A model generated the notes under the pieces. The model worked only from the letters and a program-made list of their open reading frames with translations, searched no databases and was not told the origin of the DNA. This document shows positions 3,531 to 64,000 of a DNA stretch of 64,000 nucleotides, one piece after another. Origin of the DNA: Leptolyngbya sp. SIO1E4 (GTDB taxonomy: Bacteria; Cyanobacteriota; Cyanobacteriia; Phormidesmidales; Phormidesmidaceae); contig JAAHFU020000001.1 in NCBI GenBank assembly GCA_010672825.2, positions 248,001 to 312,000 of the forward strand. The letters are read 5' to 3'. The position numbers and the translations under genes are program-made. Every line of letters begins with the position of its first letter. Position 1 is the first letter of the stretch.

Positions 3531-5294
3531 CTAAACGTTATGGGACGGGTTAAAAACTTCCTGCAGCTGGTCAAATCCAACTCGATGACAAAAGACCCCA
3601 AACCGTTCATTTAGTTCACGATTAGCTTTGAAATAAAGAAATAGAGGTTCTAAAAAGATTTCCAAGTCTTCAATCTTGAGCTTTTCCACATGGGGCTGCG
3701 CCAGTGTCGTGCCTTCAGGCGTGCCCCCCAGCCAAACTTGATAAGTCCCCGGCCCACTCCCCACAAAGCCTAATTCGGCTAGATAGGGGCGAACGCACCC
3801 ATTGGGGCAGCCGGTCATTCGTATGATCAACGGTTCGTCAGCCAGATTGAGCTTCTCTAGCAAGCGGGTAATACGCTCTAAAACGCTGGGAAATACTCGT
3901 TCTGATTCGGTAATGGCTAATCCACAGGTTGGTAAGGCAGGGCAGGCCATGCCATGGCGAGTTAACTGGTTCAGTTGCTCAGGATTACTTGCAACACCAT
4001 GGGTCTCTAAAATCTTTTCAATGGCCTGTCGCTGCGATCGCTCAATTTCATACAGAATAATATTGTGATTGGGGGTTAAGCGCAGGGGTAAATTAAACCG
4101 CTCTACAATTTCCCGTAAAGCTGTTTTGAGTTTTACGGGGCCCTTATCTTGAACCCGCCCATTTTCAACCAAGAGGCCAAAAAATTGTTGGCCATCTCCT
4201 TGATCGTGCCAGCCTAAAAAGTCCTGATATCGCCAGGGTGGAAGTTCTCGAAAAGGCTGCAGGGGCTTGCCAAAATAGGATTCAACTTGAGCCTTAAATT
4301 TGTCAATTCCCCAATCATGAATTAGATACTTCATTCGAGCATGGAGGCGGTTAGAGCGATCGCCATAATCTCTTTGAAGTGCACCAATGGCTTTTAGTAA
4401 CGGGTAAATGTCCTCTTTTTTGACGTAGCCTAAGTGATTAGAGAGACGGGCAAAAGTCTCTTCTTTATTGTGGGTGCGCCCCATGCCTCCACCTGTCAGC
4501 ACATTAAACCCCTCTAGCACACCATCTTTTCGGGTAATGACGACCAGGCTAATATCGTGGGTGTAAACATCAACGGAGTTATCGCCTGGAACCGTCACGC
4601 AACATTTAAACTTTCTAGGGAGATAGTTAGGCCCGTATAGGGGTTCTATAGCTTCCGTAAATATCTCAGCATTGAGGTCTTGCTGTCGTGCAGCTTTTTG
4701 TTCAGGGGCTGCTTCAGCACTAATGACCTTGTCACCATCCAACCAAATTTCATAGTAAGCGCCCGTTTGCGGTGTAAACAGGTTAGCCACTTTATGGGCA
4801 TATTCCCAGGCATAATCATAGTCTGAACGATGCTTAAAGGGAGCCGGAGGTGCCATAACATTACGATTTAGGTCGCCACAGGCCCCCAAGGTAGACCCCA
4901 TGCTGCGGATAATATCTGCAATCACCGGTTTCAAATTTTGCTTAAGAATGCCGTGCATTTGAAAGGCTTGACGGCTAGTGACTCTCAGCGTTTGATTGCC
5001 GTATATCTCTGATAAGCGATCGAGCGCCAGATAAAACTGTGGCGGAACAAAGCCTCCTGGCGTCCGTGTCCGCAACATCATTTGATAGTCTTTCCCTTGC
5101 CCTCTGACGCGGTTATCTCGGTTATCTTGCTGATAAGAACCGTGAAATTTAAGAATCTGCAGCGCTGCTTCACTGAAGTGGATTGTATCCTGCAGCAGTT
5201 CCGTTGCTAAGGGCTCTCGTAAAAAATTGCTATTGGCTTTGATGCTTTCTATTTTGGAAGGCTTTCTTTTGGAGGTCTTGGGAGCGGTCTCCAT
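3531..5294 (-). CDS. sir: Ferredoxin-sulfite reductase (siroheme/4Fe-4S)
   Basis: A 587-residue assimilatory sulfite reductase reducing sulfite to sulfide with six electrons from ferredoxin in the cytoplasm. Family landmarks include '[12 protein letters not shown]', '[15 protein letters not shown]', '[20 protein letters not shown]', '[11 protein letters not shown]', and the four cysteines binding the siroheme-coupled 4Fe-4S cluster as ACPALPTC (C-x5-C) and TGCPNGC (C-x3-C). The open frame can extend to a TTG at 5339, but the ATG at 5294 ('METAPK') gives the usual N-terminus. Three DsrE-like genes follow at 9-36 bp spacing, unusual company for sir. Nitrite reductase is the main alternative, but the sequence around the cysteines and the C-terminal '[10 protein letters not shown]' favour sulfite reductase. 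Confidence 0.9.
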
Positions 5295-5994
5295 ATTTCT
5301 TACCCATGAACGGCAAGCTGAATGTGATTTCGGGGTCAAGACTTATGCAGTTGAGTCAGTTTCGCCCCCTTATTTCTCAATTCTGGAAAACCAGATTCAA
5401 AGTCCATCAGAATTTGGAGATTTAAGGGGTCAACACGTAAGTCCTAAGGTTCTTTAATTTCAGCGTTGCTACACCTTAAATGAACTGAGTCAGTTTCCGT
5501 AACTCTGAGTTCTATGAGGATATTTGGTGACCGATAAAGAGAGTTTTGTCCAGATCTCTGTATTAGTGCTACGTCTTTCTAGAAGGCTATCTAGAGGGAG
5601 CTTCTGTGAAGAATGGAGACAGACAAATGACAGTTTCTAGAAGCACACCTGTTGATTTCACCAGGTAATCAGAAAGAATTATTGGTTGCTTTAATCAAAC
5701 TGACGAGACACCTATTGATTTTGCCAGGGGCAACTCTAGTTATATTGCTAGGTGCTAGAAATAGTTAACGTGAAATATATTTATCAAACATACTTTTAAC
5801 TTTTATAGTCTCTGCGATCGCGATCTAGGTCTGAATTGGAATCCTGACAATAAAGCATGCATGAAGAATCTGTATAAATTAACGGCTTATTACTAAATTT
5901 TGATTAGAACTGCTGCAATAGAGCATAAAAATTTTACAGTACTAAAAGTGTGTATTCAGAGCTTGTATTCAGAATAGGCAAGAGCAGTGCAGCG
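5295..5994. promoter_or_regulatory. 700-bp gap upstream of sir with spaced direct repeats
   Basis: This gap separates the divergent sir operon and the NTF2-like gene and should hold both promoters. Two degenerate direct repeats are visible: acacctgttgatttcaccagg at 5645-5665 and a copy matching 18 of 21 positions at 5708-5728 (63 bp apart). The decamer tttctagaag occurs at 5576-5585 and 5634-5643 (58 bp apart). They may be binding sites or a degenerate duplication. No RNA gene was recognised. Confidence 0.4.
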
Positions 5995-6387
5995 ATGACT
6001 GAAGAGCACCCAAACGTCACTCTATTAAAGGCATTAGACCCCACTAATCTGGCAAAATTTGCTGAACTTTTAGCAGAGGGTTTTGTCTGGCATTTCTTCA
6101 ATCCCAATCTGCCAGATGTCCAGGGAGACTATATGGGCTTGAGCGGCCTTCAGGCCTTCTTCGAGAAACTGGGTGTGCTTACAGGGGGTACCTTTCAGGT
6201 TGAATCGATCGCTATCATTCCCTTTGGAGATGAACTGGTTGTCACCCATGTTAAAGACAGCATGATGTGGGATGGCCAGCCCCATGAAACTGACGCGGTC
6301 GTCGTCTGGCGCATCGTAAATGGGCGGATTGCTGAAGCCTGGGACATTCCCTCCGTCCATACAAAACACCTGCAGACAGCAACCTGA
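5995..6387 (+). CDS. NTF2-like/SnoaL-type protein
   Basis: A 130-residue protein with the cone-shaped NTF2-like fold signature: an N-terminal helix ('KALDPTNLAKFAELLAEGFVWHFFNPNLPD'), 'GLSGLQAFFEKL', 'VTHVKDSMMWDGQ' and a final 'VVWRIVNGRIAEAWDIP'. SnoaL-like proteins are small-molecule isomerases, hydratases or binding proteins; the ligand is unknown. An in-frame GTG at 5950 is possible, but the ATG at 5995 starts the conserved part. The stop is 8 bp before the IMPase-family gene, so the two are probably co-expressed. Confidence 0.75.
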   Translation: MTEEHPNVTLLKALDPTNLAKFAELLAEGFVWHFFNPNLPDVQGDYMGLSGLQAFFEKLGVLTGGTFQVESIAIIPFGDELVVTHVKDSMMWDGQPHETDAVVVWRIVNGRIAEAWDIPSVHTKHLQTAT

Positions 6388-6395
6388 GAGGGGCG

Positions 6396-7184
6396 ATGAT
6401 TGAACTTTTGGTGCAAACCGTGGCAGACGTGGCTCAATATCAAAGACACGCGTTCACGGATGCCAATATCGTATTCAAGACAAAAGCGAATAAGTTTGAT
6501 CTCGTCTCTGAGGTAGATCAGCGATCGCAGCAAATGCTCTTGGCTGCGGTTGAGCGGTATTTCCCGGCCTCGGGCATTGTGGCGGAGGAAAGCGGTCAAG
6601 ACAAACTTTCCCAAGATGGCACCTGGTTTTTGGTAGACCCCCTAGATGGAACCGCTAACTTTAAGGCAGGAATTCCCCTCTGGGCCATTTCCATTGGCTT
6701 GGTGAGGGATGGCATCATAGACAGCGGTATCATCGCGTTACCCGCCACGGGCGAAATCTTTTGCAGTAAAGACGGGGCACCCTTGCGACACCCCATAGAA
6801 AAATTATCGGCAGCTCAGTGCTACGGCATTGATAGCAGCTTTGAAGATTTTCCGCTTCAGGGCTTCATGTTCAGGCGTCGTCAGTTGGGGGCGGCTGTGC
6901 CCACGCTGCTGTGGTGTTGTGATTCTCGCGATCGCCAACGCCCCCGACTTGATTTTGCCTTGATGGGTAAAGGGTCGCTCTGGGATGTCTGCGGCGCGAT
7001 CGCGTTCCTCAAACAAAAGGGGGGTGCCCTCATTGATACAACCGGCCAGGATTTTACGGAATGCTCAGACGTGTTTCGCGCGCTCGGAGGCTTCAAAAAC
7101 CTCCGCAGCTATAACTTTCGATATGTTGCTAGTGCCAGTAAACCAGTTGCTCAAGAGGTTTATCAGCGGTATCTACAAACTTAG
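6396..7184 (+). CDS. Inositol monophosphatase-family phosphatase
   Basis: A 262-residue Mg2+-dependent, Li+-sensitive-type phosphatase of the IMPase/FBPase superfamily. Metal-binding motifs are 'VAEESG' (Glu), 'WFLVDPLDGTANF' (the D-P-L-D-G-T-x-N-F signature) and the C-terminal 'GSLWDVCGAIAFLKQKGG' (W-D-x-x-x-x-x-x-L-x-x-x-x-G). Substrates in this family include inositol-1-phosphate, histidinol phosphate and 3'-phosphoadenosine 5'-phosphate; sequence alone does not choose. It is preceded by a purine-rich gagaggggc directly upstream of its ATG and sits 8 bp after the NTF2-like gene. Confidence 0.88.
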   Translation: MIELLVQTVADVAQYQRHAFTDANIVFKTKANKFDLVSEVDQRSQQMLLAAVERYFPASGIVAEESGQDKLSQDGTWFLVDPLDGTANFKAGIPLWAISIGLVRDGIIDSGIIALPATGEIFCSKDGAPLRHPIEKLSAAQCYGIDSSFEDFPLQGFMFRRRQLGAAVPTLLWCCDSRDRQRPRLDFALMGKGSLWDVCGAIAFLKQKGGALIDTTGQDFTECSDVFRALGGFKNLRSYNFRYVASASKPVAQEVYQRYLQT

Positions 7185-7412
7185 AAGGTGACTTTTTCTG
7201 GCAATCCCTTGATTGATCAGACAGATCGAATTGGGATGAATGGCCAGAATGCAAAATTGATAGGAAACTCCGCAACTGTGAACTTTCTATCAATTAAATT
7301 TATTCGGTTCGTAGCTACACGAGATTGATGGGTAATCTCAGGTGTACCGAAAACGATGGCTAATGGTGCTGGCAAGCTGACTTTGCCTTGCTCCACTTTA
7401 AAGGGAAATGTT

Positions 7413-8603
7413 ATGAAAAAAGTTGTGATGGCAGCAATGCTTCTGGGAGGTATTTTGATGACGGCCTCTGCAGCACAGGCGTTGACATCTGCCGCAGAGA
7501 CCTTTCAAGGTGATATTGAAGAATCGCCAATGCACTTGATTGCACAAGCACCAACCGCTGCAACCGAAGCCGAACTCCAAGCTGAGATCAACATGCTGCG
7601 AACCCGTCCGGCAGCCTATGCAGAAAAAATTGGGCAGATTTTGGCCGCAATTGAACAGGGTGACACAGCCTCTTATCGGGAGTTGACCGGGTCTCCTTGG
7701 GGATTACCAGGCGCAGCTTACCAAGCGCGCTGGCGGGAAATGCAAACCTATCTTGCATCAGCCGAACCCGTATCTCCCATTGCTTGGGAATCTGCAGGGA
7801 GCCCACTCGGCGTGGCTGCTGAAGACAACCTAGAAAAGGCTGAAGTCGTTATTACAGAGGACTATAACCTGGGTGCTTTTTATTGGGTCGGTTACAGCCG
7901 GACTGTAGAGGATCTGCAGCAGCTTCGATCACCGGCAATTTCAAGGGGGGCGGCTCATTTATTCCAAACGCCAGCAAATGACATTAATCCCAACACGCCT
8001 AAAGCCAGGCTGGCCTTGTTTATAGACTTTGAGTTGCTGTCTACCCCCCAGGAACAGCTCTCTTATCTGTCACGGCAAGAGACGCTGACGGCAGAAGAGA
8101 TGGCACTGGTACGAGAAGCGATGCTTGCGATCGCCAATGCCGCTCGAAATGATGCTCAATACCGCAGCAACAATACTTATGCCAATACTTTGACGGGTGA
8201 TACCGCAACGACGGATAGCGGCACAGAAAGACTCTATCGCGATGCAGATGTCATGGTGGATTTAGTCTTAAATGACAAGCTCAACCAGGCTGCACAGATT
8301 CAAGCTGAGCATAATGCGGCCACTTTATCTAACGGCCATGCTGGCCCCCAGAACCATAACGGAGAAGATTTACAAACGCTGGCAGCGCGTATAGCCTACG
8401 TCAATTATGAAAGCGCGACAGGTGAAGCTGCTGGCAGGGGAAATTTAGAAAACTACCCGACACAGTGGATGCGGAACGAAACTCACTATCGGCCTTTCTT
8501 CAATGTTGGAGACCCCTTCAGCGATATTGGATTCGGCGTGGCTAAGGGTTCAGATGGCAATTGGTACGTGATTGCGGTTGTTGGAGTTGCTAAAGGAGAA
8601 TAA
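7413..8603 (+). CDS. Secreted CAP-domain (SCP/PR1-like) protein
   Basis: A 396-residue exported protein. The ATG at 7413 has an aaaggga ribosome site and opens a clear signal peptide (MKKVVMAAMLLGGILMTASA, cleavage likely near A-Q-A). The mature part carries two stretches of the CAP/SCP type: an N-terminal 'LQAEINMLRTRPAAYAEKI' and the C-terminal core with 'AAQIQAEHNA', 'NGHAGPQNHNGEDL' and the terminal 'GDPFSDIGFGVAKGSDGN', 'WYVIAVVGVA'. CAP proteins act outside the cytoplasm as proteases, lipid binders or wall-associated factors; the role here is unknown. The frame extends 19 codons upstream to 7356, but that would bury the signal peptide. Confidence 0.85.
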   Translation: MKKVVMAAMLLGGILMTASAAQALTSAAETFQGDIEESPMHLIAQAPTAATEAELQAEINMLRTRPAAYAEKIGQILAAIEQGDTASYRELTGSPWGLPGAAYQARWREMQTYLASAEPVSPIAWESAGSPLGVAAEDNLEKAEVVITEDYNLGAFYWVGYSRTVEDLQQLRSPAISRGAAHLFQTPANDINPNTPKARLALFIDFELLSTPQEQLSYLSRQETLTAEEMALVREAMLAIANAARNDAQYRSNNTYANTLTGDTATTDSGTERLYRDADVMVDLVLNDKLNQAAQIQAEHNAATLSNGHAGPQNHNGEDLQTLAARIAYVNYESATGEAAGRGNLENYPTQWMRNETHYRPFFNVGDPFSDIGFGVAKGSDGNWYVIAVVGVAKGE

Positions 8604-8904
8604 TCAGGGTTTCCGCCTTATTGCACCTGAAGTGCTGGTTAGGACAGTCAGATTTCCTGGAATCCTTATGCAGCAAGGTTTTGATTTCTGCCTTCTGCCT
8701 TCTGCCTTCTGATTTCTGCCTTTTGCTATAACTTCCGGGCAGGCTGCGCCCAAAATCTGATCACGGCGACAAAACTGGGTCAGAAAAAAGCGGATGGCGA
8801 TCGCCATCCGCTTTTCCTTGCTAGCCGGAGCAAGCTTAATTGCTGAACCAGGAACCGAAAGAACTGGGTGCGGATCTCTCGGTTCCTGTCACTGGTTTCC
8901 GTGC
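8604..8904. repeat. Heptamer array (CCTTCTG type) in the 3' gap
   Basis: About 300 bp between convergent genes. At 8683-8726 there is a tandem array built from the heptamer ccttctg with interspersed gatttctg units, resembling the short tandemly repeated repetitive (STRR) sequences of cyanobacteria. Similar but more degenerate arrays occur near 33560-33622, 56127-56168 and 62812-62875. The palindromic terminator listed separately is in the same gap. Confidence 0.7.
8786..8815. terminator. 30-bp perfect palindrome, bidirectional terminator
   Basis: A perfect 30-base palindrome, left arm aaaagcggatggcga. The HIP1-type core GGCGATCGCC is at its centre and runs of A and T lie at the two ends. It therefore reads as a hairpin followed by a U-tract on both strands. 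It lies between the convergent CAP-protein gene and dnaK and is well placed to terminate both. Confidence 0.7.
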
Positions 8905-16776: not shown

Positions 16777-18213
16777 ATGCGGGTTGCGATTGTTGGGGCA
16801 GGGCTGGCAGGGCTATCAACAGCGGTTGGGTTAGCGGATGCGGGCCATGAGGTTGAAATCTTTGAGGCGCGGCCCTTTGTAGGGGGTAAAGTCGGTAGCT
16901 GGATTGATAAAGACGGCAACCATGTTGAAATGGGCCTCCATGTCTTTTTTGGCTGCTATTACAACCTGTTTGAATTGATGAAGCAAGTGGGTGCCTTTCA
17001 GAATTTACGTCTGAAGGAGCATGTCCATACCTTTATCAATCGAGGGGGCATCACTGGAGCGTTAGATTTCCGGTTTATTACGGGAGCGCCTTTCAACGGT
17101 TTAAAGGCTTTTTTCACCACCTCTCAGCTCTCAGCAGTTGATAAAGCCATGAATGCGATCGCCCTGGGCACCAGCCCTATTGTGCGCGGTTTGGTGGACT
17201 TTAATGGGGCCATGAAAACCATCCGCGAGTTAGATCGCATCAGCTTTGCCGATTGGTTTCGCAGCCATGGTGGTTCCCAGGGTAGCCTCAAGCGGATGTG
17301 GAATCCTATTGCCTATGCTTTGGGATTTATCGACACGGAAAACATTTCAGCCCGCTGCATGCTGACCATCTTTATGTTCTTTGCAGCAAAGAGTGAGGCG
17401 TCAGTTTTGCGGATGCTGGAGGGGTCCCCCGAGGAGTTTCTGCATCAGCCGATTCTGCGTTACCTGACCGAACGAGGGGCTAAAATTCACACCCGGCGCG
17501 GGGTTCGCGAAGTTTTGTTTGAAGAGAATGGCACAACTACCCACGTTACTGGGTTGGCCGTTGCCGATGGTGAGGCGACAGAAACCATCACCGCTGATGC
17601 CTATGTCGCCGCTTGTGATGTCCCAGGGATTAAGCGATTGCTGCCAGAACCCTGGCGACGCTGGCCTGAATTTGACAACATTTATAAGCTGGACGCAGTG
17701 CCGGTGGCTACGGTGCAACTCCGGTTCGACGGTTGGGTCACAGAACTGCAAGACGCCGATGCCCGCAAGCAGCTAGATCATGCCGCCGGGATGGATAACT
17801 TGCTCTACACTGCTGATGCTGACTTCTCCTGTTTTGCGGATTTGGCATTGACCAGCCCCAGCGATTATTATCGCGAGGGTCAGGGATCTTTGCTGCAATT
17901 AGTGCTAACACCTGGGGACCCGTTCATTAAGGAAAGTAATGAGGCGATCGCCCACCATGTTCTGAAGCAGGTGCATGACCTTTTCCCCTCTTCGCGGGAG
18001 TTGACCATGACCTGGTACAACGTGGTGAAGCTGGCCCAGTCGCTCTACCGGGAAGCCCCGGGGATGGATCTTTATCGCCCCCATCAAGTGACCCCTGTGA
18101 GCAACTTCTTCTTAGCGGGCAGCTATACTCAGCAAGACTACATCGATAGTATGGAGGGGGCAACCCTTTCGGGCAAGCAAGCCGCTAAGGCCATTTTGGA
18201 GCGCATGAGATAG
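16777..18213 (+). CDS. zds: Zeta-carotene desaturase (plant type)
   Basis: A 478-residue FAD enzyme that converts zeta-carotene to lycopene via neurosporene in thylakoid or plasma membranes. It begins [20 protein letters not shown] with the Rossmann G-x-G-x-x-G and '[16 protein letters not shown]'. It contains '[20 protein letters not shown]' and '[13 protein letters not shown]', and ends with the FAD-binding '[20 protein letters not shown]', all diagnostic for plant/cyanobacterial ZDS rather than bacterial CrtI. An SRPBCC gene follows after 3 bp, a common pairing in cyanobacteria. Confidence 0.95.
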
Positions 18214-18216
18214 GGC

Positions 18217-18678
18217 ATGACTGACTGGCTAGAGCACAGCGTATTGGTTGAGGTGGATGTTCCGATTGATCTGGTGTGGAGTTTGTGGTCAGACTTAGAG
18301 CAAATGCCCCGCTGGATGAAGTGGATTGAGTCAGTCAGCATCTTGCCAGAGGATCCGGATCTGTCCCGTTGGAAGCTGGCGTCTGGAAACTTTGAGTTTA
18401 CCTGGCTGTCTCGCATTACTAAATTGGTAGAGCACCAGGTCATTCAATGGGAGTCTGTTGATGGCCTGCCCAACCGAGGGGGCATTCGGTTTTACGACCA
18501 CAAGGGCAACAGCAGCACGGTAAAACTCACGGTGGCTTACTCAATCCCCAGCCTTCTGGGTAAGCTAATGGATAATCTATTTTTAGGGCGCATCGTAGAA
18601 TCCACAATTCAGGCGGATCTCAATCGGTTTCGCGATTATGCCATGGCCGCTAAGCAGCAGCAAACGCAACAACTGTAG
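18217..18678 (+). CDS. SRPBCC-family (COQ10/polyketide-cyclase-like) protein
   Basis: A 153-residue START/Bet v 1-like protein: 'LEHSVLVEVDVPIDLVWSLW', 'LEQMPRWMKWIESV', 'NFEFTWLSRITKLVEHQVIQ', and a final amphipathic helix. The fold forms a hydrophobic pocket for lipids, quinones or isoprenoids. Its position 3 bp after zds suggests a carotenoid or quinone ligand, which is inference. No enzymatic residues are evident. Confidence 0.85.
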   Translation: MTDWLEHSVLVEVDVPIDLVWSLWSDLEQMPRWMKWIESVSILPEDPDLSRWKLASGNFEFTWLSRITKLVEHQVIQWESVDGLPNRGGIRFYDHKGNSSTVKLTVAYSIPSLLGKLMDNLFLGRIVESTIQADLNRFRDYAMAAKQQQTQQL

Positions 18679-18685
18679 TAGATCT

Positions 18686-20542
18686 GTGGCGTTTGAGGAT
18701 GCCTGCCGAACCCTAGCCAAGACCCTGAGGTATCATAGCAACCTCTTTGCAGAGGCCATCTCAGGGATTGAAGCCATGCCTGCCCGTCTCTGGTATGGGC
18801 AGGTGCTGCTGAACCGTCTGTTGCTGCTCTACGATTTGCAGGTGGCGGGGTTTTTAGGGCAGGGCGATCGCTGGTATCTGCACAATCACCTAGGCCACTG
18901 CCAGCAACAGCAGCCTAACCGCTTTTATCGTCACTATTTGCAACCCCTCTGCCACCAGGGGGTAGGGTTGCCCGAAATTGAGCGCCCTTTGCCGGTGCAA
19001 ACCACCTTTGGTCAGGTGCCTTATCTGGGCAGTCGCTTATTTCAACCGCATTCCCTGGAACAGCAGTACCCAGAGATTGACCTGCCTGACGAACCCTTTG
19101 AGTTATTGCTGGGTTGGCTAGCTGAACAGCCCTGGCACCGCACCTTTGAGGTAGCCACAGAACCAAACGCCATCACTCGTATCACCCTGGCCGGAGCTTG
19201 GGAATATTGGCACACTGGGAGAACGGGCAAGGCGATAGTGTCAGCGCCCGAAACGCTCCAAGATATCTGCGATCACACCCTAGATGCCTATGTGCTGAGA
19301 GCCCTGCATCAGCATCAGGGGCACCCAGGGCCTCCGGTAGCGTCCGTTGATGCACTCATCGCCGAGCTGGATGCCCCCACCTGTTATCTGCTATTAGAAA
19401 CCATCTTGCCGAGAATGACGATTTTGGATCCGGCTTGCGGGTCAGGGCGGTTCTTGCTGATGGCCCTGGCGCGTATGGGGCAGCTTTATCAGGCTTGTTG
19501 GACCCAGGCCCAGCAATCGCCAGATCTGAAGGGGCAAAGCTGGGGGCGATCGCCACAAGCAGCCAAGCCCACTACTGCCTGGGCTTTGGCAGCTCGCATT
19601 CTGACTCAAAACCTCTATGGTGTTGACCTGCGCCCTGAGGCAGTGGAAGTTACCCAACTCCAGCTATGGCTAGCGCTATTGTCTACGACAAGCAGCCTTG
19701 ATGACCTGGCCCCCTTACCAGATCTAGATTTCAACCTGACGACAGGTAACGCGCTGGTGGGCTTCATCCGAGTCGATGAACAAAGCTTTGACCAAATTGC
19801 CCCCAAACGGCAGTGCCAGGCGGCTGAAACCGTGCTGCAGGGCAACCTTTTGCAGCCCCTGACCGCCGCTAGCTATCGAGACACCCTGGCTGAGAAGCAG
19901 ATCCGCATCGAGCATTACCGAGCCCAAACCAAGGCCATGGCCGAAGCCGGGGGAATTCCAGAATATGTGCAGACTGAGTTTCTGCGCGATCGCATTGATG
20001 AGGTGAACCAAGCGGCGCAGCAAAAGCTCAACCGCCTTTTGTTGGAAACCTGCAGCCAAACCCTAGGCATTCAGGTCCGGGAACCGCAACCGACAGGCCG
20101 AACCCATAAGCGGTTGCTGATCCCCGCTGATATTGCCGCCCTCCATCCGTTTCATTGGGGCTTTTTCTTCAATCGAATTTTGGAACAGCAGGGGGGATTC
20201 GACATCATTGTGACCCATCCCCCAACGGGGACTCTACGGGCCAGCGCCGATGAGTTTTATAGCCAGTACGCCCATCGCTTCCAGCCATACCAGATTGATC
20301 GCGCTGCTTTTCGGCGATCGCGGCGGCTGACGCTCCAGCAAATTCCAGCTTTGGCCAAACTCTGGGCCACTTACGCTGGGCGCTTTTCTTACCTGCGGGC
20401 TTACTTTCGCCGGAGTGAAGCCTATCAACTTCCCTCGACACCTGCAGCGACACGCTCGATTCCCCTGAAAACCTTGTTTGCTCAGCGCTGTGCAGCCCTC
20501 CTGAGCCCTGAGGGGATGCCACCCTATCTTTATCTCCCTTAG
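18686..20542 (+). CDS. N6-adenine DNA methyltransferase-like protein, degenerate motif IV and short C-terminus
   Basis: About 618 residues. SAM-binding motif I is intact as 'ILDPACGSGRFLLMALARMG', followed by 'NLYGVDLRPEAVEVTQLQLW' (motif II-III) and 'DFNLTTGNALVGF', the layout of Eco57I/type IIG-like methylases. Where the catalytic (N/D)PP(Y/F) should stand, the sequence reads FDIIVTHPPTG, so Asn and Tyr are both replaced. The protein ends soon after ('LLSPEGMPPYLYLP') without a recognisable target-recognition domain, and a dispersed repeat begins 17 bp after the stop. It may be a decayed methylase or a repurposed SAM-binding protein. The GTG at 18686 is chosen because the ATG at 18638 would overlap the SRPBCC gene. 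Confidence 0.7.
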   Translation: MAFEDACRTLAKTLRYHSNLFAEAISGIEAMPARLWYGQVLLNRLLLLYDLQVAGFLGQGDRWYLHNHLGHCQQQQPNRFYRHYLQPLCHQGVGLPEIERPLPVQTTFGQVPYLGSRLFQPHSLEQQYPEIDLPDEPFELLLGWLAEQPWHRTFEVATEPNAITRITLAGAWEYWHTGRTGKAIVSAPETLQDICDHTLDAYVLRALHQHQGHPGPPVASVDALIAELDAPTCYLLLETILPRMTILDPACGSGRFLLMALARMGQLYQACWTQAQQSPDLKGQSWGRSPQAAKPTTAWALAARILTQNLYGVDLRPEAVEVTQLQLWLALLSTTSSLDDLAPLPDLDFNLTTGNALVGFIRVDEQSFDQIAPKRQCQAAETVLQGNLLQPLTAASYRDTLAEKQIRIEHYRAQTKAMAEAGGIPEYVQTEFLRDRIDEVNQAAQQKLNRLLLETCSQTLGIQVREPQPTGRTHKRLLIPADIAALHPFHWGFFFNRILEQQGGFDIIVTHPPTGTLRASADEFYSQYAHRFQPYQIDRAAFRRSRRLTLQQIPALAKLWATYAGRFSYLRAYFRRSEAYQLPSTPAATRSIPLKTLFAQRCAALLSPEGMPPYLYLP

Positions 20543-20558: not shown

Positions 20559-20654
20559 TATAGCCCTATTCAGTCCAATCCAGTACATTTTGGTGAAGGC
20601 AGGGTCTAGGGTTTGGGGTCTAGGGTGTACTTGATCCAAATGCACACCGCTATA
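20559..20654 (-). repeat. 96-bp dispersed repeat, copy A
   Basis: Full-length copy in reverse orientation. Outer ends are TATAGC and GCTATA, and the core on the minus strand reads cacaccctagaccccaaacc and continues into an accctagaccctg segment. It shares length and core with copies at 42316, 42533 and 60453. It begins 17 bp after the stop of the methyltransferase-like gene. Confidence 0.85.
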
Positions 20655-24450: not shown

Positions 24451-26637
24451 ATGACTGGATTCGAGCCACTGATCGGAGCCGCCACTAGCGGCCTCACTGA
24501 CCTAATTAAAAACATCATTGAAGAACAAGGCAGTGAGTGGCTGAAGCAGGCGGACAGTGATCTGGGTCGCAACAGCACCTTTAACCAGGCAGTGCGAAAA
24601 TATGTGCAGCGCTCCGCGAACCGCTACGGCATTGTAAAGGTCGTCTGTGTGGGCATGAACCCTCCGGTCAAGCTGGAAGAGATCTACACCGCCGTCCAAT
24701 TACTGCCGCGCCCTGCCCTGCGCGATGACCAATCACCCCAGTCGTTGCAAGCGATGTTTCGTGAGAGCGGCAGACGGGGGTTAAATTTTCAACAAACAGA
24801 GAAAAAGCAAGGGCTTGAAGTTGCCAATCAGCAGCAATATTTGATGGTGTTAGGCGACCCTAACGTCGGCAAATCCATATTTCTGAGAAAGATGGGGTTA
24901 GAGGCACTGCGACGCATCGCCATTATGGAGTTTCCCTGGCAGTTGCCCCAGGCTCTGAAGCCACAAAAAAATTACTATGTCCACGAATGCATGCCGGTGA
25001 TGCTGGAATGCCGTCAGTTCAGCCCCCGTACTCTCAAAATCGAAGCGGTTATTGCCGACGAGTTTAAGGCCTGCGGTTTCCCAAAGCCCGATGAATTTAC
25101 AGAACTGCTGCTGAAAAGTGGAAAGCTGTTGATACTGCTGGATGGTTTGGATGAAGTCCCGGCAGAGGCTTTTCGCTACACGATTACCCAAGTTGAGACG
25201 TTGGTAGATCGTTACCCCGACAACCGCTTCATTGCCTGCTGCCGGACTGCAGCCTATCGCTCTAGGGGGGTCAAGCGATTTAAGAACATGGTCGTGGCCA
25301 CCTTTGAAGGCCCACAAATCGAGCGATTCATTCAAAACTGGTTTCAGAAATCGCAAGATATTGAAACCGACACCGCCAAACGCTGCTGGGAATTGCTGAA
25401 TAGCCCAGACTATAAAGCGGCCCGAGAACTGGCCCAAACGCCGTTATTGCTCACGCTACTCTGTGGCTTCTATGAGGAATTTCAAGATTTTCCTAAAAAG
25501 CGCCATCGAATCTATGGCGAAGCTTTGGATGTGCTGCTGTACCAATGGGCCGCAGAGCAACGGATGCAGAAAGGATTCATGTATCAAAAGTTTGGAGCCG
25601 ATTTAGAACTCGAACTTTTATCAGAAATCGCCTACACCCGCTTTGTGGATGACCAACTGTTTTTCCCAAAGCAAGCTATTTTAGATCAAATCCGAGACTT
25701 TCAAGGCGACATCGAAGATTCTCCCAACCTAGACGCGAACAAAGTACTGCAGGAAATTGAAGTACAGCAGGGGATTTTAGTTGAACGGGCTCGGGATACC
25801 TATTCTTTTTCCCATTTAACTTTTCAGGAATATCTCACCGCTAAGTACATTGTCGATAACCAAAAAGTGGCTCAAATTGTGCGCGCCAACCTCACAGACG
25901 AGCGCTGGCGTGAGGTGTTTTTATTGGTGGCAGGGCTGATGCCGGGCAAAGGAGGGGCAGATGACCTGCTGAGATCGATGGAGCAGTCGGCCCAACGCTT
26001 TTTAACGGGTGAAACAACAAGGGATTTGGTGGCATGGGCCGATGCGGCTACTCACAATTCCCCTGGTCAGGCTAAAAGTGCTGCCAAGCGAACCGCCGCT
26101 CTGGCCCTAGCCCTTGACCTTTCCCGTACCCGTGCCCGTACCCGAGCTCTTGCCCGTGCTCGCGCTCTAGATCTGGCCCGTGCCCGTGCCCTGGACCATG
26201 CACGTGCCCGTGCCTTTGACCATGCCCTGGCCCGTGCATTGGATCGTCCCTTGGCCCATGCAATAGATCGTGCCCGTGCCCTGGACCGTGCCCGTGTCTT
26301 GGAACGTGCCCGTGAGTACCAGCGGTTAGGAATTTTTCAGCCGGAGGAAGCTGAACGCTTAATTCATACGTTGGAAACCTTTCAGGCTCAAATTTCAGGG
26401 CAAGAAGATCCCAATAAAATGCAGCGTAATCTTGCTAACTCAATCATCAAGATCTGGTTTAATGCCATCAACCTAAATCCGGACTATCTAGATCTTTCAA
26501 AATCAGAGATAGACGCTTTAGAAAATTATTTCTATGCCCTTGAACTCATGATTCGCTGCAAAGAAGCTGCTGTGCGAGTCTCACTTCAGGTATGGGGAGT
26601 GATTGAGTCACGCATTTTGACCATCCCCGCTAACTAA
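24451..26637 (+). CDS. NACHT-domain STAND NTPase with Arg/Ala octapeptide repeats
   Basis: A 728-residue signal-transduction NTPase. Residues 1-120 are a helical N-terminal domain without an obvious effector enzyme. The NACHT core has Walker A GDPNVGKS (about residue 135) and Walker B 'LLILLDGLDEVP' (about 228), followed by 'RFIACCRTAAYR' and a winged-helix-like 'ERARDTYSFSHLTFQEYLTA'. Residues about 550-625 are degenerate octapeptides of the type ALDxARAR, encoded by 24-bp repeats. A C-terminal helical domain ends the protein. Bacterial NACHT proteins include antiphage NLR-like defence systems; standalone cyanobacterial members are mostly uncharacterised. No toxin or partner gene is adjacent. 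Confidence 0.88.
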   Translation: MTGFEPLIGAATSGLTDLIKNIIEEQGSEWLKQADSDLGRNSTFNQAVRKYVQRSANRYGIVKVVCVGMNPPVKLEEIYTAVQLLPRPALRDDQSPQSLQAMFRESGRRGLNFQQTEKKQGLEVANQQQYLMVLGDPNVGKSIFLRKMGLEALRRIAIMEFPWQLPQALKPQKNYYVHECMPVMLECRQFSPRTLKIEAVIADEFKACGFPKPDEFTELLLKSGKLLILLDGLDEVPAEAFRYTITQVETLVDRYPDNRFIACCRTAAYRSRGVKRFKNMVVATFEGPQIERFIQNWFQKSQDIETDTAKRCWELLNSPDYKAARELAQTPLLLTLLCGFYEEFQDFPKKRHRIYGEALDVLLYQWAAEQRMQKGFMYQKFGADLELELLSEIAYTRFVDDQLFFPKQAILDQIRDFQGDIEDSPNLDANKVLQEIEVQQGILVERARDTYSFSHLTFQEYLTAKYIVDNQKVAQIVRANLTDERWREVFLLVAGLMPGKGGADDLLRSMEQSAQRFLTGETTRDLVAWADAATHNSPGQAKSAAKRTAALALALDLSRTRARTRALARARALDLARARALDHARARAFDHALARALDRPLAHAIDRARALDRARVLERAREYQRLGIFQPEEAERLIHTLETFQAQISGQEDPNKMQRNLANSIIKIWFNAINLNPDYLDLSKSEIDALENYFYALELMIRCKEAAVRVSLQVWGVIESRILTIPAN
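26101..26316 (+). repeat. 24-bp coding minisatellite within the NACHT gene
   Basis: Degenerate tandem units built on gcccgtgcc with ctggac/ctagat spacers encode repeated (A/x)-L-D-x-A-R-A-R octapeptides. Six or seven units can be counted by eye. Third positions differ little between units (repeated gcccgtgcc), which implies recent duplication or slippage. The number of units may vary between strains. Confidence 0.75.
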
Positions 26638-36404: not shown

Positions 36405-36465
36405 GCTCCAAACCCTAGACCCTGTCTTGACCCAGATGTCCCGGGCTCAACTGAGCAAGGTTATA
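36405..36465 (+). repeat. 96-bp dispersed repeat, copy E (5'-truncated)
   Basis: Contains the distal two thirds of the element: gctccaaaccctagaccctg followed by a tcttgacccagatgt segment and ending aaggttata. It spans the 3' end of the convergent SDR gene and supplies its last codons and stop. Confidence 0.75.
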
Positions 36466-42315: not shown

Positions 42316-42411
42316 TATAGCGGTATGCAGGCTAATCAAGCACACCCTATACCCCAAACCCTAGACCCTGTCTTGACCCGGATGTACTGGACTCAACTGA
42401 ACAAGGCTATA
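42316..42411 (+). repeat. 96-bp dispersed repeat, copy C
   Basis: Full-length: TATAGCGGTATGCAGGC at the left, ctataccccaaaccctagac in the core and acaaggctata at the right. Very close to copy B at 60453, in the same orientation. Confidence 0.88.
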
Positions 42412-42532: not shown

Positions 42533-42628
42533 CACAGCGGTTTGCCTTCGGATAAAGCACACCCTAGCCCCCAAACTCGAGACCCTGTCTTGACCAAGAT
42601 GCACTTGACTCATCTGAACAGCGCTATA
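42533..42628 (+). repeat. 96-bp dispersed repeat, copy D (diverged)
   Basis: Same length and orientation as copy C but more diverged: cacagcggtttgccttcgg at the left, cacaccctagcccccaaact in the core and acagcgctata at the right. Together with copy C it forms a direct pair 121 bp apart. Confidence 0.8.
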
Positions 42629-60452: not shown

Positions 60453-60548
60453 TAAAGCGGTATGCAGGCTGGTCAAGCACACCCTAGACCCCAAACCCTA
60501 GACCCGGTCTTGACCCAGCTATCCTGGACTCAACTGAACCAGGCTATA
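60453..60548 (+). repeat. 96-bp dispersed repeat, copy B
   Basis: Full-length copy with taaagcggtatgcaggctgg at the left, cacaccctagaccccaaacc in the core and accaggctata at the right. It lies 12 bp after the RmlD-like gene and overlaps the stop of a small opposite-strand frame. Confidence 0.88.
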
Positions 60549-63644: not shown

Positions 63645-63692
63645 AACACCCTAGACCCCAACCCCCAAACCCTAGCCCCTATCTAGACCCAG
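63645..63692 (+). repeat. 96-bp dispersed repeat, copy F (partial, rearranged)
   Basis: Contains aacaccctagaccccaaccc, an aaaccctagcccct segment and tctagacccag, the element's core, without either end. The carA stop codon lies inside it. Confidence 0.7.
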
Positions 63693-64000
63693 TAGAGGCA
63701 GAAACAGATGTAGAGGGCTGTTGACGCATCAGGGCAACGAATTCCCGAAAGAGGTAATCGGCATCATGGGGGCCAGGACTGGCTTCTGGGTGGTATTGCA
63801 CCGAGAAGAGAGGCAGGGTTTTGTGTCGCATACCGGCAACAGTGCGATCGTTCAAATTGAGATGGGTAATCTCAACATCGGCATCAGGGATAGAGTCGGC
63901 ATCCAGTGCAAAACCGTGATTTTGGCTCGTAATCTCTACCCGATGCGTCAAGCCACAGGGCTGATTGAGCCCCCGGTGTCCAAACTTGAGCTTGAAGGTC
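63679..64000 (-). CDS. carA: Carbamoyl-phosphate synthase small subunit (3' end)
   Basis: The C-terminal ~106 residues of CarA; the gene continues beyond the right edge. Visible are '[20 protein letters not shown]', '[20 protein letters not shown]', '[20 protein letters not shown]' and '[19 protein letters not shown]' (H-P-E of the class I glutamine amidotransferase). CarA releases ammonia from glutamine for carbamoyl phosphate, feeding pyrimidine and arginine synthesis. The last residues (STGSR) and stop are encoded in repeat copy F. Confidence 0.93.

Follow-up and report, generated by a model that had tools for sequence, protein, structure and literature searches.

A very probably domesticated pseudo-methyltransferase of Type IIG descent downstream of an SRPBCC gene in one order of cyanobacteria

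The gene at 18686–20542 (+) of the window, the whole 64-kb stretch of DNA analysed here, encodes MTL, a Type IIG-derived pseudo-methyltransferase that, judging by sequence comparison, was very probably domesticated long ago and has no DNA-methylase activity. Its catalytic residue is lost, it is under purifying selection, and its inheritance is vertical and near-universal in its lineage, as in a domesticated pseudoenzyme. A fuller reading, for which the case is about evenly balanced, would make this ancient pseudo-methyltransferase a putative SAM-binding scaffold or regulator coupled to the SRPBCC protein encoded upstream. Restriction enzymes are generally regarded as mobile genes that a cell can do without; here the descendant of one is fixed in almost every genome of an order, and fixation appears to have come after loss of the residue and the region needed to read and modify DNA.

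The MTL gene and protein

The MTL frame opens with GTG at 18686, 7 nt past the SRPBCC stop at 18678, and encodes 618 aa; an alternative in-frame ATG at 18638 would give 634 codons and overlap the SRPBCC gene, and with either start the frame is open over more than 600 codons, as the first-pass annotation had stated. The GTG agrees with the chosen starts of six g2 relatives, which lie 3 to 14 nt past the SRPBCC stop; because a script picked the start codons of MTL and its relatives, the lengths given for some of the proteins are uncertain.

The homologous methyltransferase core of Type IIG enzymes is present, with Pfam matches to MmeI_Mtase (PF20473; 1.5e-9) and Eco57I (PF07669; 5.5e-8). The best PADLOC model is the Type IIG restriction-methyltransferase PDLC03628, which MTL matches at 2.5e-37 and two homologues from outside its family at 6e-161 and 3.7e-165. 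Motif I, the presumed SAM-binding loop DPACGSG (19427–19447, +; residues 248–254), is intact and continues as RFLL, as first annotated. It is followed by motif II LYGVD (19613–19627, +; residues 310–314), the presumed motif III GNALVG (19745–19762, +; residues 354–359), and a QGNLLQPL block (19838–19861, +; residues 385–392) that is nearly invariant among the homologues of the window's family (hereafter the group). Motifs II, III and X are presumptive, being assigned from general family knowledge without a structure. The (N/D/S)PP(Y/F/W) motif IV of Type IIG enzymes is absent, and THPPTG (20213–20230, +; residues 510–515) replaces (T/A)NPPW(E); the annotated loss of the catalytic motif is real.

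The target-recognition domain (TRD) is missing too, as had been noticed. MTL stops where long proteins from outside the group continue for 373–564 aa in 15 of 16 cases (236 aa in the distant L087). Also missing is the N-terminal region, a putative PD-(D/E)XK nuclease, that precedes the core in outside relatives. A tblastn search of the 64-kb window for detached pieces, using two outside C-terminal regions as well as outside N-terminal regions, returned nothing at E≤1. AlphaFold models from inputs of three and five sequences have mean pLDDT values of 38.9 and 54.1, and most of the methyltransferase core falls below 50; Foldseek with these poor models gave nothing at E≤0.001 and is uninformative on the fold. 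A PDB profile search with 25 sequences matched CamA, BREX and MmeI proteins, mainly at motif I; the same search with three sequences gave one match, which was spurious.

The repeat annotated 17 bp past the MTL stop is a copy of an interspersed CCAAACCCTAGACCC repeat on the minus strand (20559–20616, core 20602–20616, the outer edge being extrapolated from a 58-nt register) and is separate from the gene. Other copies of the 58-nt repeat beginning CCAAACCCTAGACCC lie on the plus strand at 36408–36465, 42354–42411, 42571–42628, 60491–60548 and 63665–63722, and its 15-nt core occurs seven times in the window with two or fewer mismatches, versus 0.12 expected. Farther to the right a gene at 24451–26637 (+) encodes a NACHT NTPase with an NCH2 C-terminal domain, preceded by low-complexity repeated ALDRARA-like units.

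Distribution and gene neighbourhood

The window's family, which alone represents the order here, is covered by 63 genomes, and 61 of these encode an MTL homologue (E≤1e-20), so MTL is not a chance ORF. The homologue is missing from G023 and G070, both of them draft genomes; the SRPBCC gene is likewise not found in either, which points to an assembly gap. A class-wide sample of 291 genomes contains 52 matches at E≤1e-50, 32 of them in the group, and the other 20 are patchily distributed among at most 257 genomes. Within the group, records L001 and L002 duplicate the matches of G027 and G059. The group frames are open at 34–57% identity to the window MTL, and broken frames occur in two drafts (G085 and G072).

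The window's genome has no close intact paralogue of MTL; its second match scores 24.5 bits over residues 259–399 and lies in a 1414-aa frame. Second matches at E≤1e-20 occur in few group genomes, and several of these are a split single gene or come from drafts. Both results count against MTL being a regulatory subunit for an active methyltransferase encoded elsewhere in the genome, in the manner of DNMT3L and METTL14. Retention of the fold with loss of catalysis would fit that role, as would the distant homologue in the 1414-aa frame, but the scarcity of candidate partners leaves it quite unlikely.

The constant upstream partner of MTL is an SRPBCC (Polyketide_cyc) gene (18217–18678, +; PF03364, 4.8e-19), itself preceded in the window by zds, encoding zeta-carotene desaturase (16777–18213, +; TIGR02732, 1.7e-273), and the annotation had identified both. 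On the ORF list for 14–25 kb, in which not every ORF is named, the genes nearest to MTL are zds, SRPBCC and DLH. Among 58 loci extracted from the group, SRPBCC is upstream of MTL and on the same strand in all 49 where an SRPBCC homologue is present, and the MTL frame opens 50 nt or less from the SRPBCC stop in 45 of them; in the other four the distance is larger (L049, 239 nt; L088, 622 nt) or the frame is broken (L100 and L127). At the remaining nine loci the MTL match starts at or near a contig end. The downstream side is less constant, with the commonest cluster in 29 of 55 loci, and zds adjoins the SRPBCC–MTL pair in only part of the group's genera. At 22 loci from 22 other families, zds is directly upstream of SRPBCC in 12 and MTL is beside an SRPBCC homologue in none; the zds–SRPBCC arrangement therefore looks old, with MTL added in this order. 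Beyond the window's family, 23 cyanobacterial families were sampled and all but one have a homologue of the SRPBCC gene (22 of 23); a literature search found no paper on the function of this gene.

Motif loss, phylogeny and selection

Motif and retention counts for the group refer to 54 of 58 sequences, the excluded rows being L127 (broken frame) and three from genus g7. Outside the group, C-terminal and retention counts refer to 18 of 22 sequences (minus L086, L087, L120 and L123), and the motif IV count restores these four, giving 20 of 22 with the column. The catalytic Asn is found in none of the 54 group sequences outside g7, versus 19 of 20 outside the group (NPP(W/Y)). It is replaced by His in 28, Arg in 10, Ala in seven, Gln in five and Ser, Val, Asp and Leu in one each, and the replacement varies between and within genera, as does that of the Trp. 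The first Pro of motif IV is kept in 22/54 and the second in all 54, while the aromatic residue, always Trp, is kept in eight and gone in 46. A Gly two residues past the second Pro (G515) is present in 50/54, where outside relatives mostly have Glu (17/20). H-P-P-T, which the annotation had proposed to check for conservation, is not conserved as such; what is conserved is the absence of Asn, the second Pro and the following Gly.

Motif loss is not uniform across genera. Both g7 sequences with the motif IV column read NPPW, and in g6, g9, g10, g14 and four of seven g13 sequences the Asn is lost and PPW is retained (as APPW, HPPW, RPPW or LPPW). The comparison of lengths that had been proposed finds all group members without the C-terminal region of the long outside homologues: they extend 0–102 aa past the end of the window MTL, g7 included (L127, with its broken frame, aside). 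The annotation had reasoned that orthologues with NPPY and a full TRD would mark the window copy as simply decaying; the C-terminal region is in none of them, and NPPW is confined to the two g7 sequences. The window's clade also lacks about 150 residues in front. Of 21 outside frames uncut by a contig end, 16 are 1,058–1,577 aa and five (L086, L109, L110, L120 and L123) are 560–928 aa. One outside Type IIG-like homologue, L111 in G110 (4671–8663, –), carries a C-terminal Schlafen AlbA_2 domain.

Changing the NPPY Asn to Ala abolishes methylation by TspGWI, a bifunctional restriction-methyltransferase (PMC2700111). In BrxX, changing the NPPY Tyr to Ala disrupts DNA binding (PMC11842806). Without the Asn, the motif IV aromatic and a TRD, MTL would not be expected to methylate DNA site-specifically, and to label any member of the group a 'DNA methyltransferase' is probably an error. 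MTL might instead be a pseudoenzyme that binds DNA or RNA, having kept a nucleic-acid face and serving as a transcription or RNA factor. Descent from a DNA enzyme would favour this, but the presumed target-reading C-terminal region is gone in every member and so, in 46/54, is the aromatic whose counterpart in BrxX matters for DNA binding, which makes such a role unlikely.

In a 73-row tree (seven of 80 rows with less than 75% of the core were dropped) the group is one clade with support of 100/100, and genera mostly group together, which disfavours horizontal spread within the group. With motif IV columns omitted (46 rows; the chosen row L088 was dropped for coverage), g7 is sister to all other group members (99/96). 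Because g7, with NPPW, branches first, a single loss of Asn after its divergence suffices, and that loss was probably a unique and ancient event; the PPW kept in several Asn-less genera is consistent with loss of Asn first and of the remaining motif later. On the fuller reading, a Type IIG gene would have become established behind the SRPBCC gene in the common ancestor of the order. The C-terminal (target-recognition) region would have gone before the first visible split, followed by the motif IV Asn and, in several genera, the N-terminal domain, with purifying selection maintaining the core. Stages are preserved in g7 (Asn kept, C-terminal region gone), in the genera lacking only the Asn and in those with most of the motif gone, making the order of events directly testable.

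An independent loss of Asn has occurred outside the group, in a 565-aa homologue from family f17 (L086 in G051; 6072–7766, –) that reads THSPN at motif IV and has no adjoining SRPBCC gene along the 11 kb of contig in view. When motif IV columns are omitted from the tree, no other outside row lies closer to the group, but in the midpoint-rooted 73-row tree this homologue falls among outside rows, and the shortening of MTL may be shared with it through a deeper origin.

MTL is under purifying selection, far from neutral. NG86 dN/dS is 0.053–0.230 in the 16 of 17 group pairs where it is defined (one pair is from g7, and dS is above 2, hence saturating, in two of the 17), and YN00 gives 0.076–0.347 for the 17 pairs. 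Five pairs of outside homologues have NG86 values of 0.095–0.279, and the SRPBCC gene has 0–0.086 where measurable; MTL therefore evolves faster than SRPBCC and much like an outside Type IIG-like enzyme. The first-pass annotation had offered constraint or recent inactivation to account for the open frame: the low dN/dS bears out the former, and the latter fails, the Asn being gone in 13 of 14 genera and 54/54 sequences. Recent inactivation or decay was rejected in view of the distribution together with dN/dS.

Conservation is concentrated in certain blocks. Asp, Ala, Cys and the first and second Gly of motif I are present in all 53 group sequences with the column (Pro in 52), and residue 314 in motif II is Asp or Glu in all 53. 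The 223 columns invariant outside the group have a mean retention of 0.49 within it, with 1.00 at the motif I Asp, Ala, Cys and first Gly, 0.98 at its Pro, and 0.00 at Asn511 and 16 other columns. The motif X-like stretch, FGAYYT in outside homologues, has eroded. Conversely, G55, W63, W144, P391 and E409 are fixed within the group only (P391 lies in QGNLLQPL), and these, with the new G515 (0.82 with genera weighted equally), are a sign of new constraint beyond mere loss. A slowly decaying remnant without function would account for the eroded motif IV and X-like stretch, the shed N- and C-terminal regions, the faster evolution relative to SRPBCC and the frames broken in two drafts. It is already disfavoured, and is highly improbable given near-universal open frames of such divergence, the low dN/dS and the invariant blocks.

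Possible function and relation to known systems

As a domesticated pseudoenzyme, MTL would be neither DNA methylase nor nuclease. It would most likely still bind SAM or SAH, as retention of motifs I–III suggests, although motif I may be kept merely as a structural turn and the eroded motif X-like YYT stretch counts against SAM binding. It would then act by binding, and the constancy of the coupling makes the putatively co-translated SRPBCC protein its most likely partner, with MTL as a scaffold or SAM-responsive regulator. A role as SAM-binding partner or regulator of SRPBCC is put forward tentatively, and the coupling could be mere co-expression. More speculatively, and rather unlikely on present comparisons, an ex-defence enzyme might serve as a SAM/SAH-sensing regulator of a START-like SRPBCC protein and so link the availability of methyl groups to a process connected with carotenoids or membranes; if so, such a sensor would span one whole order of cyanobacteria.

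The main rival to this scaffold or regulator is a SAM-dependent methyltransferase that still acts, on another acceptor (a small molecule, a lipid or quinone, or a protein) for which the NPPY Asn is unneeded, and to which a lipid-binding-type SRPBCC protein may present the substrate. Motifs I–III are kept, MTL is coupled to SRPBCC and in some genera lies near zds, and HW, GGF and P513 are nearly invariant with the new G515 beside them, so that the old catalytic loop is evidently still shaped by selection. The replacements of Asn and Trp vary, however, such that neither position has a fixed residue that could have taken over catalysis, and this together with the eroded motif X-like stretch leaves continued catalysis somewhat unlikely.

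Among the open-licence papers searched none is about the MTL family by title or start of abstract, which is weak evidence of absence, and a literature search found no example of a Type IIG-derived, lineage-wide pseudoenzyme. The group profile has no viral relatives; the outside profile has four, all with NPPW/Y. MTL resembles the adenine methyltransferases BREX PglX/BrxX, DISARM DrmMI and CamA in the fold region of motifs I–II. DrmMI keeps NPPY, and each of the three depends on a partner system or a TRD, whereas the genes nearest to the window's MTL are zds, SRPBCC and DLH. BrxX and CamA keep NPPY as well (PMC11842806), and MTL does not. The conserved fold with a lost catalytic motif is a likeness to pseudoenzymes generally, the subject of the review PMC10211241. 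Orphan DNA methyltransferases of Halobacteria offer a parallel of a different kind, an orphan kept in a lineage where restriction systems are patchy, but PMC6471742 deals with them as methylases that have target motifs, whereas MTL lacks the catalytic Asn. The closest likeness is to Type IIG enzymes (PDLC03628, PF07669 and PF20473), with which MTL shares the core and motifs I–III; it differs from them in lacking the C-terminal region, the catalytic Asn and, in the window's clade, the N-terminal region, and, whereas Type IIG enzymes are patchily distributed, hardly any genome of its order is without it.
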